A stretch of 14,552 nucleotides of DNA from NCBI GenBank assembly GCA_903922745.1, contig CAIXVA010000047.1, forward strand, positions 1-14,552. Direction: 5' to 3'. The notes beneath the pieces were generated by a model. That model made no database searches. It saw only the letters and a list, made by a program, of their open reading frames with translations, and had not been told where the DNA came from. Source of the DNA: an uncultured Actinomycetes bacterium. Lineage in GTDB: Bacteria; Actinomycetota; Actinomycetes; Nanopelagicales; Nanopelagicaceae. Position numbers and translations under genes: made by a program. This document shows positions 1,805 through 12,395 of the stretch, one piece after another; the stretch's first letter is position 1; the number at the start of each line of letters is the position of its first letter.

Positions 1805-4800
1805 GTGAGTAAGCAGCCCTTCAGCCTTGTACGACAGGTACTTCAGGCTGCCCCGCTTACCTTGGATGCTGATCAGCAAGCGGTTGTTGCACACCGCGGA
1901 TCACCAATAGTCGTTCAAGGTGGACCCGGTACAGGAAAGACAACTGTTTTAGTTGAAGCAGCCCTTGCCCGTATTCAAGAAGGACAAAATCCAGATTCAA
2001 TTTTGTTACTAACCTATGGTCGCGAGCGTGCATCCGAACTTCGTGATGCGATTGCACTTCGCACGACCAAGTCAATGTTTGAGCCACTTGCTAGAACATT
2101 CCATTCTTTAGCATTTTCAATCTTAAAGATGAAGGCAAAGGGCGATCCTGATCCGATTTTGCTCAGTGGACCAGAACAAGAAAGTTACATCCGCGAATTA
2201 CTGCAAGGTGATATCGAAGATGGTTTTAAGGAATGGCCCGAAGATCTACATAAGGCGTTAACTACTAATGGCTTTGCTCGCGAACTACGAGATTTGATTT
2301 TGCGTGCATCAGAACGTGGCATCGATGCAGATGAGTTAGCAAAGCTCGGTAAACAAGAGGGCGAAAAGTATTGGGAAGCAGCCGCTGCTTTCTGGAAGAG
2401 ATATACCAATTCCATGATCATGCGAGAGTTCAGCGCTCAAGATGCAAAACTGCGTATTGATCCATCTGAGTTAGTCTCCCGCGCATCTATCCATCTTCGT
2501 AACAACCCAGATTTACTAGATCAACTACGCAATCGATTCACAACGATCATGGTTGATGAGTTTCAGGAAAGTGATCCAGCACAGCGCGAACTATTGGCGT
2601 TGCTTGCTGGTAACGATGTAATCATCTGCGCCGATGCAGATAGTGCAGTCGGACGATTCCGTGGGGCAGATCCAGATGGGTTAGCTGCCGCGTTAGATCC
2701 TTATCGCGCAAAAGAAGTTGTTCTAAACCGTGTGTATCGAAATGCACCGGCAATCTTTGAAGTTGGGCATCAATATGTTCAGGGATTCCGAGGATCACCT
2801 GTAACCCGCAAGCGCTCGTGTGCCTCAGAAAACGGCGGTTTTGTTGGGGTTCATCGCTTTAGAAGTGGGGCAGAAGAAGCAGCATTTATCGCTCATCAAT
2901 TCCGCAGTGCTCATTTGCGCCAAGGGATTTCTTATAGTGACATGGCAGTTGTTTTGCGTACTCCTGGTGTTCAAGCAGCTGCGCTGCGCCGCGCATTTTC
3001 ACAAGTAGGCATCCCTGTTGCATCCGAACTACAAGCACTTGGTGGCAACCCTGCAATCACGCCGTTCTTATTGTTGGCACGTGTTGCAATTGGGGCACAA
3101 CCTCTTAATTTAGATACTGCAGAGCGCTTGCTGCTCTCAGAATTTGGTGGGGCAGATTCAATTTCTTTGCGACGCATCCGTCGGGCAATGATCACTGCTC
3201 GTCCTGAAGGTGATGAGCGCTCAGGCACGCAGTTGTTGCTTGATGCAATCAAAGATGGTGAATTGTTTATTGAAGGTGCCGATAGTGTGCTACGAGTTCA
3301 TGCATTACTAAAAGGTGCAAAGGCAATTGCTCGCAACAAGAGTGCGCTAGCAGATGATCTGTTGTGGTTTATTTGGGATAATGCACTGACTTCAGATCAA
3401 AATAAACTGTCCACAGCTTGGCGCAATCAAGCGTTACGTCCAGGAGTTCGCGGGGCAGCAGCTGATCGAGATCTTGATGCCATGATGCAATTGTTTGAAT
3501 CTGCTGCGCGTTATTCCGAACGCTTTCCGTTATCTGGTCCTGCAGCCTTTATCAACGAAGTTGCACATGAGGACATTGCAGGAGATGTTATTACCGCTAA
3601 AGGTGTACGCCCAGATTTTGTGGAGATCCTTACCGTGCATAGCGCAAAGGGTCGTCAATGGCAGGTTGTTGCAATTGCAGGTTTACAAGAGGGCACCTGG
3701 CCTAACCTGAAGCAACGCTCATCATTGTTAGGTGCAGAGCGATTAGTTGAAAGAAAGCGCAACCCTGATATTCCACGTGATCAGCTAGATGTCATTGCTG
3801 CAAATGGCTTGATGCAGGATGAGCAGCGCTTATTCCATGTGGCTCTAACCCGCGCCCAGCAATCACTTTTCGTCACCGCTGTTCAGCGCGACGATGAAGA
3901 ACCTTCACAGTTCTTTGAGGCGATCGAAGTTTTGGTCAACAAAACCGATGATGAGGAACATGTATTGACCGATGTTCCTCGTCCTATTACTGCACCTGCA
4001 TTGGTGGCAGAACTTCGTGCACAGTTAGCTGGACCAAAGGCAAAAGAGGCGGCCGCGTTATTAAAGGCGATGAGCGCCGAAGGTATCTATTTAGCAAACC
4101 CAAATAGTTGGATTGGTTCTGTGCCCTTGAGTACTGATGCACCTGTCATTGATCCTGATAAAGAGGTCATTGTTTCTCCATCAGGGGCCGAATCCTTTGT
4201 GGAATGTGGTGTGAAGTGGTTCTTGCAAAGCAATGGTGGCTCAGATGGCGACAGTACCGCACAGGTTTTAGGTTCTGCTATTCACGCATTTGCAGCAAAG
4301 ATGGTGCAGGAGCCCGGCACAAGCCGTGAACAATTAATCGAATCTTTGGAAAAGTCATGGAAGTTAATTGATCCAGACAGCGGATGGGTGAGCGCATCCC
4401 ATCTGGAATCTGCAGTGACAATGCTGGAAAAGTTTGTGGAGTACCACAAGGAAACCAAGCGTGAAGTAAAAGGCGCCGAATTACGTTTTGATGTGAAGTT
4501 AGGACGTGCTCGCATTATCGGAACTGTGGACCGACTTGAAGTAGAAGCCGATGGTTCGCTATTTATCATTGACTTTAAAACGGGCAATACCGCTATCAGC
4601 AAAGAGGATGCAAAGAAAAATCTGCAGCTTGCTAGTTATCAGTTAGGTGTTGTAGAAGGTGGATTTACTGATGGGAATAAATCAGCAGGTGCCGAACTTG
4701 TATATCTGGGCACAAGTAGTGCAGGAGCATCGATTCGACAGCAGTATGCGATTGATATCGAAGAAACAAAGGCCACTATTGAAACAATTGGCGAAGGTAT

Positions 4801-4903
4801 GGGAGCTGCCACCTTCTTTGCCACAGTTAATAAGCGCTGTAAAGGCTGCCCAGTAAGGAAATCCTGCCCTGTTCAAAGTGATGGACGGGCGGTGATTGAG
4901 TGA
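1805..4903 (+). CDS. adnA: AdnA: helicase-nuclease subunit with Fe-S nuclease domain (DNA break resection)
   Basis: This is the first subunit of the heterodimeric AdnAB motor-nuclease, which unwinds and resects double-strand breaks in actinobacteria (functional counterpart of RecBCD/AddAB). It has 1032 residues, similar to mycobacterial AdnA. The N-terminal UvrD-like motor shows a Q motif (LDADQQAVV), Walker A GGPGTGKT (39-46), motif II DEFQ (D251, E252), motif V ILTVHSAKG and motif VI ALTRA. The C-terminal RecB-like nuclease has D909 (GTVDR), D923 and K925 (IDFKTG) and a QLASYQLG helix. Cysteines C801, C1012, C1015 and C1021 (lone C, then C-x2-C-x5-C) match the iron-sulfur staple of AddB/AdnA nucleases. 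Motif III is atypical: ADADSAVGRFRGA, without the usual GDPxQ. The GTG start at 1805 has no clear Shine-Dalgarno; a TACGGT at 1787-1792 could be a -10 for a nearly leaderless mRNA, but this is weak. The stop overlaps adnB by 1 nt. Confidence 0.93.
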   Translation: MSKQPFSLVRQVLQAAPLTLDADQQAVVAHRGSPIVVQGGPGTGKTTVLVEAALARIQEGQNPDSILLLTYGRERASELRDAIALRTTKSMFEPLARTFHSLAFSILKMKAKGDPDPILLSGPEQESYIRELLQGDIEDGFKEWPEDLHKALTTNGFARELRDLILRASERGIDADELAKLGKQEGEKYWEAAAAFWKRYTNSMIMREFSAQDAKLRIDPSELVSRASIHLRNNPDLLDQLRNRFTTIMVDEFQESDPAQRELLALLAGNDVIICADADSAVGRFRGADPDGLAAALDPYRAKEVVLNRVYRNAPAIFEVGHQYVQGFRGSPVTRKRSCASENGGFVGVHRFRSGAEEAAFIAHQFRSAHLRQGISYSDMAVVLRTPGVQAAALRRAFSQVGIPVASELQALGGNPAITPFLLLARVAIGAQPLNLDTAERLLLSEFGGADSISLRRIRRAMITARPEGDERSGTQLLLDAIKDGELFIEGADSVLRVHALLKGAKAIARNKSALADDLLWFIWDNALTSDQNKLSTAWRNQALRPGVRGAAADRDLDAMMQLFESAARYSERFPLSGPAAFINEVAHEDIAGDVITAKGVRPDFVEILTVHSAKGRQWQVVAIAGLQEGTWPNLKQRSSLLGAERLVERKRNPDIPRDQLDVIAANGLMQDEQRLFHVALTRAQQSLFVTAVQRDDEEPSQFFEAIEVLVNKTDDEEHVLTDVPRPITAPALVAELRAQLAGPKAKEAAALLKAMSAEGIYLANPNSWIGSVPLSTDAPVIDPDKEVIVSPSGAESFVECGVKWFLQSNGGSDGDSTAQVLGSAIHAFAAKMVQEPGTSREQLIESLEKSWKLIDPDSGWVSASHLESAVTMLEKFVEYHKETKREVKGAELRFDVKLGRARIIGTVDRLEVEADGSLFIIDFKTGNTAISKEDAKKNLQLASYQLGVVEGGFTDGNKSAGAELVYLGTSSAGASIRQQYAIDIEETKATIETIGEGMGAATFFATVNKRCKGCPVRKSCPVQSDGRAVIE

Positions 4904-7900
4904 TGAGTACTGAAGCCACGTATACACCTGAAGAGATCATCGCCAAACTTCAGTCACATCCCAAGTTTGGCTCACAGATCAAACCGATTACCAAGCATCA
5001 ATCAGCAATTATCAGTAGCGGTCTAGAACCTGCTGTTGTTATCGCAGGTGCTGGTTCTGGTAAGACAGAGACAATGAGCAACCGTGTTTTGTATTTAGTT
5101 GCTAACGGTTTTGCCACACCTGATCAAATCTTGGGTCTCACTTTCACCCGTAAAGCTGCTGGTGAATTATCTGTTCGTATCCGCAAGCGTTTGCGTCAAC
5201 TATCGCAATTACCAGAGTTCAAGCACATCACATCAAACAGCACGGCTGTTACGACTTATCACTCATATGCAGGCAAGTTGCTCAGCGAACATGCGATCCG
5301 ATATGGAATAGATGCAGATGCTGATCCTCTGGGCGAGGCAGCAATCTGGCAGATTGCATCTGATGTTGTGCGCAACTGGTCAGACGATTCCTATCGCAAT
5401 GACAGTGCCGTAAGTACTGTGATTAAGGATTTGCTGGGGCTTTCAAAGTTAATGCTTGAACATCAAGTAAAGGCTGCAGATATCGAAGCGATCGGCAACG
5501 AAATGCTTGAGAAGTTGCAGTTGCTTGGTGGCAGCACCAATGAAGATACACGCGCAGTTGCCCGTGCCATGCAGCAACGTAATTCTTTGTTACCTATGGT
5601 TGAAACCTTTATGGAACGCCGCAAAGCTGCCGGCGAGTTATCGTTTGATGATCAGATGTCGTTGGCCGCAGATATTGCACAAAACTTTGAAGATGCCGGT
5701 GCCTTAGAGCGCGGCAAGTACACCGTTGTTTTACTTGATGAGTATCAAGATACTTCTCAATCTCAGGTGCGCATGCTCTCTTCATTGTATGGGGCAGGCC
5801 ATCCAGTTATGGCTGTGGGAGACCCATCGCAGGCTATTTACACTTGGCGAGGAGCATCTGCCGGCACTATGGCCTCATTCCATAAGTACTTCCCAAAGGT
5901 GCAAGGTCAAACAGGTACCCAGCAATTTTCTCTGCCAACAACTTTCCGTAACGACACAATCATCTTGAATGCTGCAAATGCAATTAGCGCACAAATCAAA
6001 GCTGATGGTGGTCAACAAGTTATTGAACTTGAGGCACGAAATGGCGCAGGTGTAGGTGAGCTTGCCTACGGTATTTATGAAACCGTCGTAACAGAATCTC
6101 AAGCAATTGGTGAATACTTCAAAGCGCTCTGGAATCCAGCTGACAATAAGTCTTTTGCTGTCTTGGTACGAAAACGGAGTCAAATAGCAAGTATTGAAAA
6201 TGCACTATGCGAACAAGGTTTGCCGGTCGAAGTCATCGGTATTGGTGGCTTGATCCATATTCCAGAGGTTGCAGATGTTGTGACCTTGATGAAGATCATT
6301 ACCGACCCTGATGCTGGATCTTCGTTGATGCGCCACTTAACAGGACCACGAATTAATCTGGGACCTAGAGATATTGCAGCACTCGGTGGCTTTAGTCGAG
6401 AGCGCGCAAAGGCAATGCACTCAGATTCCAAGAGCTTTATTAAAAAGATTGCTGCTGGAAATCCTGATCAATTAGAAGCAGATGATCAATTCTCTGGCTC
6501 TATCATCGATGCACTAGATGAAATCACTTCTGCCAAAAAGAGTGGTTTTAGTGATCTTGGATATCAGCGCCTAGTTACCTTTGCGCAAGATCTTCGTCGC
6601 TTACGCTCACGTGCCGGTGGACAAATCACCGATTTAGTAACAGAGATTGAGAACTATCTAACACTTGAATCAGAAATTACCTTGCGCGAAGGTTCACAGA
6701 CAGGTCGTCGTCATCTAGATCGTTTCTTGGATGAGGCATCAAAGTTTGAACGAAGCGGTGGATCTGTTTCAGCCTTCTTAGATTGGTTAGATGTCGCATC
6801 AGATGAAGAGGGCGGCTTAAAGGTTGGAGCCCCTGAAGTACGCACTGATGTGGTTCAAATCCTTACAGTTCACATGGCAAAGGGCGCCGAATGGGATGTT
6901 GTGGCAGTGCCTGGATTATCTGAAGGAACCTTCCCTGGAGTCAACAGAAGCGACCCAGATAACTGGTTAAAGAATGAAAAGCACGTGCCATTTGCTTTAC
7001 GCGGTGATGCCCATGAGCTTCCTTATTTCACTCTAGATGGCATTACTAAGAACAGTGATGCAAGTAAGGCGATTAAAGCTTTTGCATCTGAGTGCGTGGA
7101 TACAATTAAAATGCGTGAGGAAATGCGATTGGCATATGTTGCAGTTACCCGTGCTCGCACGCACTTGATCTGCACAACCTCCTGGTGGCGAGATGGATCA
7201 AAATCTGTTTCACCTTCCAACATCTTCACACTTATTGCAGGGGCTGCAAGTGCACACGGCGGACGATTAATTTCAGATATTGCAGCACCTGAAGATGGAG
7301 TTGAAAACCCAACTCTTGAAAATCCTTTGACCGCTGTGTGGCCTAGAGATTACCTAGGAGATAAGCGGGCTCAGTTTGATGCAGCGATTAAATTAGTAAA
7401 TGCCTCCGAGGTTCATCCACTGATTGATTCAGAAGATTCCGAAGTTAATTCCTGGATCATGGATGCTCATAGTTTGATTACCGAGCAACGAAAGCGCGCT
7501 ATAGATGTGGTTGAGGTCGCATTACCAACTCGTCTTTCTACTTCCACTCTGGTTTCCTTACATGAAAACCCACAAGAGCTTGCACTTAACATTCGCCGTC
7601 CAATGCCACGAGGGCAAGATCAATACTCTCGCCGCGGTACCGCCTTCCACTTATGGGTCGAACGCCAGTTCACAGATGCCGCTACCTTGTTTGGCGACGA
7701 GTACCTAGATTATTTAGATCCACTAGATGATGATTCAAAGTTAGAAGATCTAAAGGCTGCATGGTTAAAGAGCACCTTTGCCAATCGCACACCAGCCCGC
7801 GTTGAAGTTCCCTTTGAAACAACCATTGCTGGGGTGTTAATTAGAGGTCGAATTGATGCCATTTATAGTGATGGAGATGGCTTCCAAGTGGTGGATTGGA

Positions 7901-8106
7901 AGACAGGTTCAAAGCAGTTAGGTAAGTCGGCGCAGGTGCAATTGGCGATGTATCGCTTGGCGTGGGCGAAGCTATCTGGCTGCGATATTTCCAAGATCTC
8001 TGCGGCGTTTCACTATGTGCCAACAGGAGTAACTGATCAACCAGCAGATTTATTGGATGAGGCTGCCTTGGTTACTTTGATTTCTTCCATTGAAAAATCA
8101 GAATAA
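4903..8106 (+). CDS. adnB: AdnB: helicase-nuclease subunit (DNA break resection)
   Basis: This is the partner subunit of AdnA. The chosen start is ATG 4903, whose A is the last base of the adnA stop (TGATG). GGTGA at 4891-4895 lies 7 nt upstream as a ribosome site. A GTG at 4900 is in frame but less likely. The product is 1067 residues. The motor motifs look complete: GAGSGKT (49-55), LTFTRKAAGEL (Ia), DEYQDTS (D279, E280), VGDPSQAIYTWRGAS (III), FRND (IV), ILTVHMAKGAEWD (V) and YVAVTRAR (VI). The C-terminal nuclease has H in RGTAFHLWVE, D985 (GRIDAIY), D998 and K1000 (VVDWKTG) and QLAMYR. Unlike AdnA it has no cysteine cluster. An intact motor here beside a degenerate motif III in AdnA fits the mycobacterial picture of AdnB as the leading motor. 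Both nuclease sites appear intact, so the complex should be able to cut both strands. Confidence 0.94.
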   Translation: MSTEATYTPEEIIAKLQSHPKFGSQIKPITKHQSAIISSGLEPAVVIAGAGSGKTETMSNRVLYLVANGFATPDQILGLTFTRKAAGELSVRIRKRLRQLSQLPEFKHITSNSTAVTTYHSYAGKLLSEHAIRYGIDADADPLGEAAIWQIASDVVRNWSDDSYRNDSAVSTVIKDLLGLSKLMLEHQVKAADIEAIGNEMLEKLQLLGGSTNEDTRAVARAMQQRNSLLPMVETFMERRKAAGELSFDDQMSLAADIAQNFEDAGALERGKYTVVLLDEYQDTSQSQVRMLSSLYGAGHPVMAVGDPSQAIYTWRGASAGTMASFHKYFPKVQGQTGTQQFSLPTTFRNDTIILNAANAISAQIKADGGQQVIELEARNGAGVGELAYGIYETVVTESQAIGEYFKALWNPADNKSFAVLVRKRSQIASIENALCEQGLPVEVIGIGGLIHIPEVADVVTLMKIITDPDAGSSLMRHLTGPRINLGPRDIAALGGFSRERAKAMHSDSKSFIKKIAAGNPDQLEADDQFSGSIIDALDEITSAKKSGFSDLGYQRLVTFAQDLRRLRSRAGGQITDLVTEIENYLTLESEITLREGSQTGRRHLDRFLDEASKFERSGGSVSAFLDWLDVASDEEGGLKVGAPEVRTDVVQILTVHMAKGAEWDVVAVPGLSEGTFPGVNRSDPDNWLKNEKHVPFALRGDAHELPYFTLDGITKNSDASKAIKAFASECVDTIKMREEMRLAYVAVTRARTHLICTTSWWRDGSKSVSPSNIFTLIAGAASAHGGRLISDIAAPEDGVENPTLENPLTAVWPRDYLGDKRAQFDAAIKLVNASEVHPLIDSEDSEVNSWIMDAHSLITEQRKRAIDVVEVALPTRLSTSTLVSLHENPQELALNIRRPMPRGQDQYSRRGTAFHLWVERQFTDAATLFGDEYLDYLDPLDDDSKLEDLKAAWLKSTFANRTPARVEVPFETTIAGVLIRGRIDAIYSDGDGFQVVDWKTGSKQLGKSAQVQLAMYRLAWAKLSGCDISKISAAFHYVPTGVTDQPADLLDEAALVTLISSIEKSE

Positions 8107-11592: not shown

Positions 11593-11637
11593 CTCTATCC
11601 CTTCATAAAGACCCTATGTACGCTCATTTAGGCGGAG

Positions 11638-11678
11638 AATTAATTACCTTGCCAGTACCTCAACCCATGGTTTATAGT
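11638..11678 (+). promoter_or_regulatory. whiB7 leader promoter with AT-rich putative WhiB7 site
   Basis: TTGCCA (11649-11654, five of six consensus) and TATAGT (11673-11678, five of six) are separated by 18 nt, a good sigma-70/SigA-type promoter. The predicted start is near 11685, about 40 nt before the leader ORF. AATTAATTA (11638-11646) ends 2 nt before the -35. In mycobacteria WhiB7 bound to the main sigma factor activates promoters, including its own, through AT-hook contacts to an AT-rich patch just upstream of -35, so this tract is a good autoregulation candidate. No terminator for uvrD2 is seen between 11593 and 11637. Confidence 0.68.
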
Positions 11679-11726
11679 TACAACTTCATTCCCATGGCGG
11701 GGATGTGCATGACGGAAGGAACGAAT

Positions 11727-11885
11727 ATGTCTAACGCATCATTCGTATCAGCAAACGCATTGCGTTCTGCTGTGATTCCTTCTGCTCATACAACCAATAA
11801 GCCTTCTACTTGGCATGCAACGAAGCCAGCGTTTTACGCAGCTTTTTATGCCGGATACGAGGCCAATGGTGGTTCGATCGAATAA
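11727..11885 (+). CDS. whiB7 upstream ORF, putative regulatory leader peptide
   Basis: A 52-codon ORF with an excellent ribosome site (GGAAGGA, 11714-11720, 6 nt before ATG). The frame is open from 11616, but those earlier ATGs lie in or before the promoter. The peptide is rich in Ser, Ala and aromatics, with no recognisable domain. A tandem AFYA-AFYA (residues 35-42) is encoded by different codons in each copy (GCG TTT TAC GCA versus GCT TTT TAT GCC). Codons 43-46 (G-Y-E-A) form the 5' arm of the antiterminator described below. The stop TAA (11883-11885) lies in the loop of a small hairpin (ATCGA 11877-11881 / TCGAT 11887-11891) and 21 nt before the terminator stem. Upstream ORFs controlling whiB7/wblC by attenuation are known in mycobacteria and Streptomyces. 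The peptide is therefore more likely a translation sensor than a protein with its own job, although a small functional protein is possible. Confidence 0.8.
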   Translation: MSNASFVSANALRSAVIPSAHTTNKPSTWHATKPAFYAAFYAGYEANGGSIE

Positions 11886-11921
11886 CTCGATTTAGAACTA
11901 AAAGCCAAGGGCCTCGAATCC
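11853..11921 (+). promoter_or_regulatory. Predicted antiterminator pairing in the whiB7 leader
   Basis: GGATACGAGGCC (11853-11864) is complementary to GGCCTCGAATCC (11910-11921) at 11 of 12 positions; the single mismatch is A11857 against A11917. The 3' segment is 12 of the 15 bases of the terminator's 5' arm, so the two folds are mutually exclusive. The 5' arm lies in codons 43-46 of the leader ORF. A ribosome held at or before about codon 38 would leave it free to form the antiterminator. A ribosome moving to the stop would keep it melted while the terminator forms. The complementarity is seen directly; the mechanism is inferred. Confidence 0.7.
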
Positions 11922-11943
11922 ACAAGGATTCGGAGCCCTTTTT
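11907..11943 (+). terminator. Intrinsic terminator/attenuator between the leader ORF and whiB7
   Basis: AAGGGCCTCGAATCC (11907-11921), loop ACAA, GGATTCGGAGCCCTT (11926-11940), running into TTTTT (11939-11943). The 15-position stem has one C-A mismatch (11913/11934) and one G-U wobble (11914/11933). It lies 53 nt before the whiB7 start with no second promoter evident in between, so whiB7 transcripts must pass it. This makes it an attenuator rather than a simple end-of-gene terminator. Confidence 0.88.
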
Positions 11944-11996
11944 CCATTCCCCGGAAAAAATGTCTACAAACAACTACAGGAAGAAGAGGTGAGAAC

Positions 11997-12395
11997 ATGA
12001 GCGTTCTCTTCAGTGAACTACTAGTACCAGGCTGGGCAGATGACAAGATCGGTTTGGACGCCGTAACAGGCACGTATTCAGACGGGTCATCATTTAATTT
12101 GCCATGCCACACAGCAGATCCTGAGCTCTACTTCTCTGAAGATGAGTTGCAAGTTGCCGAGGCTAAGTCACTGTGTGGCGGATGTCCGGTGCGTGCGCAG
12201 TGCTTAGAAGGTGCTCTATCGCGCCAAGAGCCGGCAGGTGTGTGGGGCGGAGAATTATTTGAAGAAGGTCGCATCATTGCAAAGAAGCGCAAAGCTGGAC
12301 GACCAACGTTGAAAGAGATCGCTGCACGCACTGCAGAAGGCGAACTGATCGAACTCAATGTTAAGAGCAAAGAGCGAGAGGAAAGTGCTGCTTAA
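11997..12395 (+). CDS. whiB7: WhiB7 (WblC) Fe-S transcription factor, antibiotic-response regulator
   Basis: WhiB proteins are actinobacterial [4Fe-4S] regulators that bind the main sigma factor; WhiB7 controls intrinsic antibiotic resistance and redox genes. This 132-residue protein has the four cluster cysteines C37, C60, C63 and C69 (C-x22-C-x2-C-x5-C), the beta-turn GVWGG (81-85) and the WhiB7-type continuation ELFEEGRIIAKKR leading to a basic AT-hook-like KAGRP (99-103). That AT-hook is what separates WhiB7 from other Wbl proteins. The C-terminal tail after it is longer than strictly needed and charged. ATG 11997 follows a strong GAGGTGAG (11986-11993). Expression is probably set by the leader promoter, the attenuator and autoactivation. 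Position next to uvrD2 matches mycobacteria. The stop overlaps the tadC stop on the other strand. Confidence 0.94.
   Translation: MSVLFSELLVPGWADDKIGLDAVTGTYSDGSSFNLPCHTADPELYFSEDELQVAEAKSLCGGCPVRAQCLEGALSRQEPAGVWGGELFEEGRIIAKKRKAGRPTLKEIAARTAEGELIELNVKSKEREESAA

Follow-up and report, generated by a model that had tools for sequence, protein, structure and literature searches.

The leader of whiB7 in the window, by which is meant the whole stretch of 14,552 nucleotides analysed here, is most probably a transcription attenuator of whiB7 coupled to translation of an upstream open reading frame (uORF). The probability of this reading is put at roughly 0.87. An attenuator had been proposed in an earlier note made from the sequence alone; its parts, their conservation and the mutually exclusive pairings are borne out, and the switching itself we infer. 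The device appears to be of a known kind, the whiB7/wblC attenuator, present in a lineage for which no description was found and carrying what looks like a lineage-specific sensor block. The features are listed in Table 1.

Table 1. Features of the whiB7 leader and its surroundings, in window coordinates
Feature	Position	Strand	Description
AT-rich element	11638–11646	+	AATTAATTA; putative WhiB7 (AT-hook) site, immediately 5′ of the −35 box
Promoter	11649–11678	+	TTGCCA 11649–11654, 18-nt spacer, TATAGT 11673–11678; by scan
uORF Shine-Dalgarno	11716–11721	+	AAGGAA; by sequence
uORF	11727–11885	+	52 codons, MSNASFVSANALRSAVIPSAHTTNKPSTWHATKPAFYAAFYAGYEANGGSIE; ATG 11727, TAA 11883–11885
Proposed ribosome-stall (sensor) zone	11823–11852	+	KPAFYAAFYA, uORF codons 33–42; strictly conserved peptide
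Antiterminator 5′ outer arm	11853–11864	+	within the uORF; pairs with 11910–11921
Antiterminator hairpin	11853–11921	+	26 pairs; −35.0 kcal/mol, z = −7.5
Intrinsic terminator and T-run	11907–11943	+	arms 11907–11921/11926–11940, T-run 11939–11943
whiB7	11997–12395	+	WhiB-family regulator; GVWGGE and GRP AT-hook-like end

The window is derived from a MAG of 1.16 Mb, 79% complete, in which it lies on contig C47. The named-genome relatives of the window WhiB7 include a Ca. Planktophila MAG with 95% identity, and by these relatives the window belongs within or close to Ca. Planktophila of the Nanopelagicales, an order within the Actinomycetes. A streamlined aquatic actinobacterium, as had been guessed from the sequence, fits such relatives. 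The genes are, in order, typA/bipA (truncated by the window edge), two UvrD-type helicases, an endonuclease/exonuclease-family gene on the opposite strand, a NUDIX gene of the nudC type, a uvrD-like gene and whiB7. The two helicases are adjacent (window 1805–8106), carry PD-(D/E)XK nuclease domains and lie near the NUDIX gene, the uvrD-like gene and whiB7; they resemble an AdnAB-type pair. A similar gene order is found around whiB7 in mycobacteria. The uvrD-like gene ends 134 nt upstream of the uORF, and a uvrD-like flank is present at 143 of 167 family loci (duplicates counted) and at 10 of 52 class-level loci, where often little flank is available.

From its sequence the gene downstream of the leader is identified as whiB7. 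The product matches Pfam PF02467 (Whib) with an E-value = 3.1e-17, and the best solved-structure match is WhiB7 7kif (E-value = 9e-23), with which it has the GVWGGE and GRP end in common; an NCBIfam search of the product gave no match. whiB7-like genes (E-value of 1e-25 or better) are found in 244 of 296 family genomes and in 103 of 108 near-complete ones, which fits the claim of a system kept despite genome reduction. Three genomes show two whiB7-like matches each: G007 (L003, L066), G035 (L012, L067) and G102 (L101, L102). These could be either MAG mixing or real duplication; in G007 each copy has its own uORF plus terminator leader.

The promoter that had been read from the sequence was recovered by scan, and its place is kept in relatives, which usually show TTGC and TACCCT there. 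Transcription would be expected to start near 11685 from the promoter position. An AT-rich element upstream of the −35 box, a feature that the earlier note passed over, is known from WhiB7 promoters; a similar element occupies the same place in most relatives compared and in the promoter-box scan. The complete box (AT-rich element, TTG[CA] and TANNNT) is present in 119 of 143 leaders versus 11 of 429 mononucleotide shuffles. It fits WhiB7 autoregulation, and the promoter is probably autoactivated by WhiB7. A strict form of the promoter pattern occurs once in each of seven complete genomes, just 5′ of the listed whiB7, with one control match overall; the genome of the window, with TATAGT as its −10, lacks the pattern. 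A looser pattern, TTAATTNNNTTGC, gives 89 sites in the seven complete genus genomes versus 45 in the reversed control, and the excess is a possible WhiB7 regulon. Between 11944 and 11996, where a strong separate promoter would bear against attenuation, the plus-strand promoter scan listed no promoter-like site.

The uORF is well initiated, as the earlier note stated, and appears translatable by its Shine-Dalgarno site, its ATG and its substitution pattern. With the in-frame ATGs at 11709–11711 and 11616–11618 the open frame reaches 89 codons; where the window has ATG 11709, an in-frame stop is found in L003. A relative of the uORF peptide is found in 90 of 131 genus genomes (E-value of 0.01 or better). 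The uORF starts 3–9 nt after the −10 box in 17 of 42 diverse leaders from the family, e.g. L023, L068, L108, L127–L130, L144 and L146, and by eye the start in L022 adjoins the −10 box likewise. These 17 uORFs may be leaderless, which the window uORF is not; other relatives, the window included, display a Shine-Dalgarno-like site before the uORF. The mode of uORF initiation seems to have changed more than once. No convincing orphan copy of the uORF away from whiB7 was found among 12 followed regions with second or displaced peptide matches. Two of these (L287, L289) lie directly 5′ of whiB7, two (L294, L295) hold the whiB7 start at a contig end, and in six (L286, L288, L290, L291, L296, L297) a uORF sits close to a contig end and whiB7 is missing. 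Of the remaining two, L292 matches weakly (E-value = 0.0066) and comes from a complete genome, and L293 gave no match on follow-up.

The terminator has the 15 positions previously described, 14 pairs and one mismatch with a delta G = −21.8 kcal/mol, and its T-run is followed by 53 nt before the whiB7 ATG. The 13-pair core at 11908–11942 has a delta G = −20.4 kcal/mol (z = −5.2), and none of 200 dinucleotide shuffles is as good. The pairing of the 12-nt uORF segment with the 5′ arm of the terminator, at 11 of 12 positions, is exactly as the earlier note claimed. This segment is the outer part of a 26-pair hairpin, whose inner stems, unmentioned in that note, extend across the uORF stop (11867–11870/11904–11907, 11871–11875/11895–11899 and 11876–11881/11887–11892). 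None of 200 shuffles matches the whole antiterminator, so that in thermodynamic folding both hairpins exceed their shuffled controls. Conflict with the terminator is limited to the outer antiterminator stem, and the inner stems are compatible with most of the terminator. When the uORF part of the window is recoded synonymously, 1 of 100 randomisations folds as well. Synonymous recoding of 50 diverse leaders gives a median z of −2.1, with no more than 5 of 100 as low in 31 of them; dinucleotide shuffles of 52 leaders give a median z of −3.3, with 32 leaders below −3. Rfam at the gathering threshold shows no family in the window, and at relaxed settings the leader matches lie only far below gathering scores.

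The spacer between terminator and whiB7 ATG, 11944–11996 in the window, has a scanned length of 38 to 230 nt across 148 leaders. In some genomes it contains short repeats (examples of the spacer region are L088, L131 and L142), as if it were hypervariable between strains. Several MAG contigs break off in or near the whiB7 leader.

In the proposed working of the switch, transcription would begin at the AT-rich, probably WhiB7-autoactivated promoter and ribosomes would then translate the 52-codon uORF. A ribosome at the stop codon would cover the inner antiterminator stems, the terminator would form and transcription would end near 11943. A ribosome slowed or stalled with its A-site at about codon 40 or earlier would allow the antiterminator to form once 11921 has been transcribed; this would capture the 5′ arm of the terminator, and RNA polymerase would read through into whiB7. 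The antiterminator, once made, would have to last long enough. The cue would be slowed translation, from ribosome-targeting drugs or from a shortage of charged tRNA.

A ribosome scan, in which the RNA was masked codon by codon and left free from the first base of the A-site +13 (an assumed footprint), places the switch point at the end of the sensor zone. With RNA up to 11922, the probability of the outer antiterminator stem is 0.99–1.0 for A-site codons 2–40, 0.68 at codon 41, 0.21 at codon 42 and 0 from codon 43. Once the full terminator has been transcribed (to 11944), equilibrium favours the terminator (P > 0.5) at 27 of the 39 A-site positions from codon 2 to codon 40; at codons 33–40 the terminator P lies between 0.34 and 0.94, and in the ribosome-free leader it is 0.97. 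Thus antitermination must be kinetic, with the antiterminator made first and persisting. In this model an untranslated leader might end in termination. Against the model, a ribosome at the stop covers approximately 11865–11895 under the assumed footprint, which leaves the outer antiterminator arm just uncovered.

The leader set covers a part of the 244 genomes, with up to 30 loci per search by rank plus chosen places. The 167 family loci were reduced to 150 (7 with short upstream sequence and 10 with an identical tail omitted). Removing two leaders with weak terminators (L067, L131) and collapsing identical regions left 135. A hairpin score of at least 20 is found in 148 of the 150 leaders scored. 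In 131 of the 135 distinct leaders the 5′ arm of the terminator pairs at least 6 nt with the uORF side, a count that has no null. The exceptions are L020 with 5 nt and L142 with 4 nt (the cut being 6), L090 with a score of 0, where the hairpin was probably cut short by the scan (by eye it is like L091), and L150, which is truncated and off-leader.

The uORF arms and the post-stop/terminator arms pair better within a genome than when swapped between genomes, with a mean of −27.8 kcal/mol versus −21.6 kcal/mol (z = −12.2, 0 of 5000 permutations; 50 leaders sharing less than 88% identity). When each of 16 genera is represented by a single leader, z = −6.3, with 0 of 20000. The same test on the terminator's own two arms (z = −12.3 and −6.6) is partly built in, since these arms were found by a best-hairpin scan, and is not used as evidence. 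Column covariation of the antiterminator in a MAFFT alignment is weak: 54.2% of cells are paired versus 52.6% when shuffled, with 6 of 500 shuffles reaching the observed value. For the four further measures 16 to 66 of 500 shuffles do so, and a +1 slide comes close, at 52.7%. RNAalifold on the alignment returned terminator pairs only and no antiterminator pairs. Some single pairs do change on both sides, e.g. A-U, G-C, U-A and C-G at columns 47/106. Pairing registers that shift between genera may be the cause of the weak column signal, though this does not turn it into support. The column-wise test was replaced by the register-free comparison of same-genome and swapped arms, in which the uORF side co-varies with the terminator side.

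Outside the family, every one of the 48 class-level loci examined shows a candidate uORF and a strong terminator whose 5′ arm is paired upstream over 8–15 nt, again a count with no null. Forty of these loci were hand-picked for family spread and 8 were returned by searches; the uORF was picked mechanically, and there is no shuffled control for the uORF or for the pairing. The attenuator looks general in the families sampled.

A uORF-mediated attenuator of whiB7/wblC was reportedly described in mycobacteria and Streptomyces by Burian & Thompson in 2018 and by Lee, Lee & Roe in 2022. In the accessible parts of PMC11550727 and PMC13393426, complete translation of the uORF leads to termination and disturbed translation to read-through, and the accessible parts of PMC4128351 (Dinan et al. 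2014) and PMC13236596 also give the attenuation pattern for whiB7. The scheme of the window leader matches the published one, apart from the equilibrium favouring the terminator. WhiB7 downstream, a translatable uORF, an intrinsic terminator between them and an antiterminator formed by the uORF 3′ end and the terminator 5′ arm are shared with the mycobacterial and Streptomyces attenuators and are all found in the window. The window differs from them in belonging to the low-GC Nanopelagicales, in a uORF body unlike that of other families and in an aromatic-rich block before the antiterminator arm; among its relatives, the uORF starts that adjoin the −10 box are a further difference. No description of a whiB7 attenuator in Nanopelagicales or Planktophila was found in the open-access literature, and two papers that link Nanopelagicales with WhiB are, in their accessible parts, on phage WhiB.

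The trp, his and ilvB leaders also have a coding block just 5′ of the antiterminator arm and a competition between terminator and antiterminator (for ilvB1, in the accessible part of PMC13236596). The window differs from these leaders in having no single-amino-acid run and in controlling a regulator, whiB7, rather than a biosynthetic enzyme. Membership among the amino-acid biosynthesis attenuators was not adopted, the block being a mixed one of Ala, Phe and Tyr with whiB7 downstream. In the drug-inducible attenuators of ARE-ABCF genes (are5sc, tiaA and others), translation of a uORF likewise couples ribosome inhibition to antitermination, but the uORFs of are5sc and tiaA are 3 and 9 codons long, and stalling there takes place at the start codon (PMC12421871, accessible part).

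The proposed stall zone shows no amino acid change in 28 distinct 52-codon genus uORFs (pN = 0.000, pS = 0.337), which were chosen by the motif FYA[AN]FYA, a choice that lowers pN in seven of the ten codons. In these 28 uORFs pN/pS is 0.45 over codons 2–52, 0.55 over codons 2–31 and 0.91 over codons 43–52, where pS is 0.15; for comparison, whiB7 has a pN/pS of 0.12 (0.122). When loci are counted irrespective of the motif (not deduplicated), 79 of 84 in the genus carry FYA[AN]FYA, as opposed to none of the 76 from the rest of the family; its codons show synonymous, third-position variation. The low pS of codons 43–52, together with their pN/pS, is expected for an RNA arm, and codons 33–42 are constrained as peptide. 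Thus the peptide-constrained zone of the uORF, which the earlier note did not mention, gives way to an RNA-constrained zone at the predicted switch point.

Phe, Tyr and Trp make up 24% of codons −9 to −20 from the stop (48 leaders of 16 genera) versus 16% when permuted within peptides, with p = 0.0005, which is optimistic because the stretch was picked after inspection of the profile. The proportion is approximately 5% in 48 uORFs of other families and 7% in the genes of the window. The positional profile left out L025 and L130, for which the wrong frame had been taken. The order of residues in the aromatic block varies between genera but the composition stays. In the window uORF alone the aromatics are not significant (p = 0.077), and Ala, at 11 of 52 codons versus an 11% background, is modestly enriched (p = 0.026, uncorrected); uORFs of the family are generally rich in Ser, Thr and Ala. 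Estimated leader by leader, the stall boundary was noisy, with values of 0 to 15 codons upstream of the stop, and the fixed positional profile took its place; genus-level tests based on the estimate were not significant (aromatics, p = 0.09; Ala, p = 0.11 and in the opposite direction). At the uORF end, 11 of the 48 class-level loci from other families show WSPP plus one residue; genera of Nanopelagicaceae other than that of the window have comparable ends, TWSxIG. The aromatic-rich block and the constraint on KPAFYAAFYA are new here, and suggest a lineage-tuned stall site.

The hairpin might be a mere terminator of the uvrD-like gene, given how close this gene ends to the uORF and how often it flanks family loci, and the pairing with the uORF would then be incidental. 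This is barely credible: a conserved promoter and the uORF lie in between, the pairing arms of uORF and terminator co-vary, and in the window leader most synonymous recodings abolish the stable pairing. It is also very improbable that the leader controls translation of whiB7 or stability of its RNA rather than termination. The Shine-Dalgarno region of whiB7 in the window is outside both hairpins, and a spacer as variable in length as that between terminator and ATG fits no fixed pairing with a ribosome-binding site.

Within the attenuator reading, the main cue may be that charged tRNAs for Phe, Tyr and Ala run short, which would be sensed at codons 35–42, and whiB7 would here be mainly a regulator of amino-acid starvation. 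Alanine starvation is reportedly named in the title of a 2024 paper. The surplus of aromatic residues, its location at the switch point and a composition that is kept while the order differs between genera all favour this cue, as does the response of whiB7/wblC to amino-acid starvation given in the accessible parts of PMC11550727 and PMC12421871. However, the stretch was chosen post hoc, there is no repeated control codon of the trp or his leader kind, Ser, Thr and Ala are common family-wide, and the window uORF taken alone shows no significant aromatic excess; starvation as the main cue is possible, on the doubtful side. KPAFYAAFYA could instead be a nascent-chain arrest motif, slowing the ribosome from within the exit tunnel, alone or with a drug, while the antiterminator is still free. 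The peptide of codons 33–42 is invariant despite synonymous change, whereas whiB7 itself admits some amino acid change, and the motif is kept in most genus loci with synonymous change. Selection of the 28 uORFs by the motif lowers pN in its seven codons, and other genera lack the motif, having a similar composition in another order, so that arrest by the peptide is rather unlikely.

Taken together as one tentative reading, to which we give somewhat less than even odds, the whiB7 attenuator of the Nanopelagicaceae would carry a retuned sensor, in which an aromatic/alanine block just 5′ of the antiterminator arm (KPAFYAAFYA in Planktophila), under strict amino acid selection, causes stalling by shortage of Phe-, Tyr- or Ala-tRNA or by nascent-peptide arrest. 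The block at codons 33–42, situated on the predicted switch point, names the codons for a stalling search and makes the question of the signal directly testable. If this retuning is true, whiB7 in these abundant freshwater bacteria would be a regulator tied to nutrient supply, and antibiotic resistance would not be its main role.
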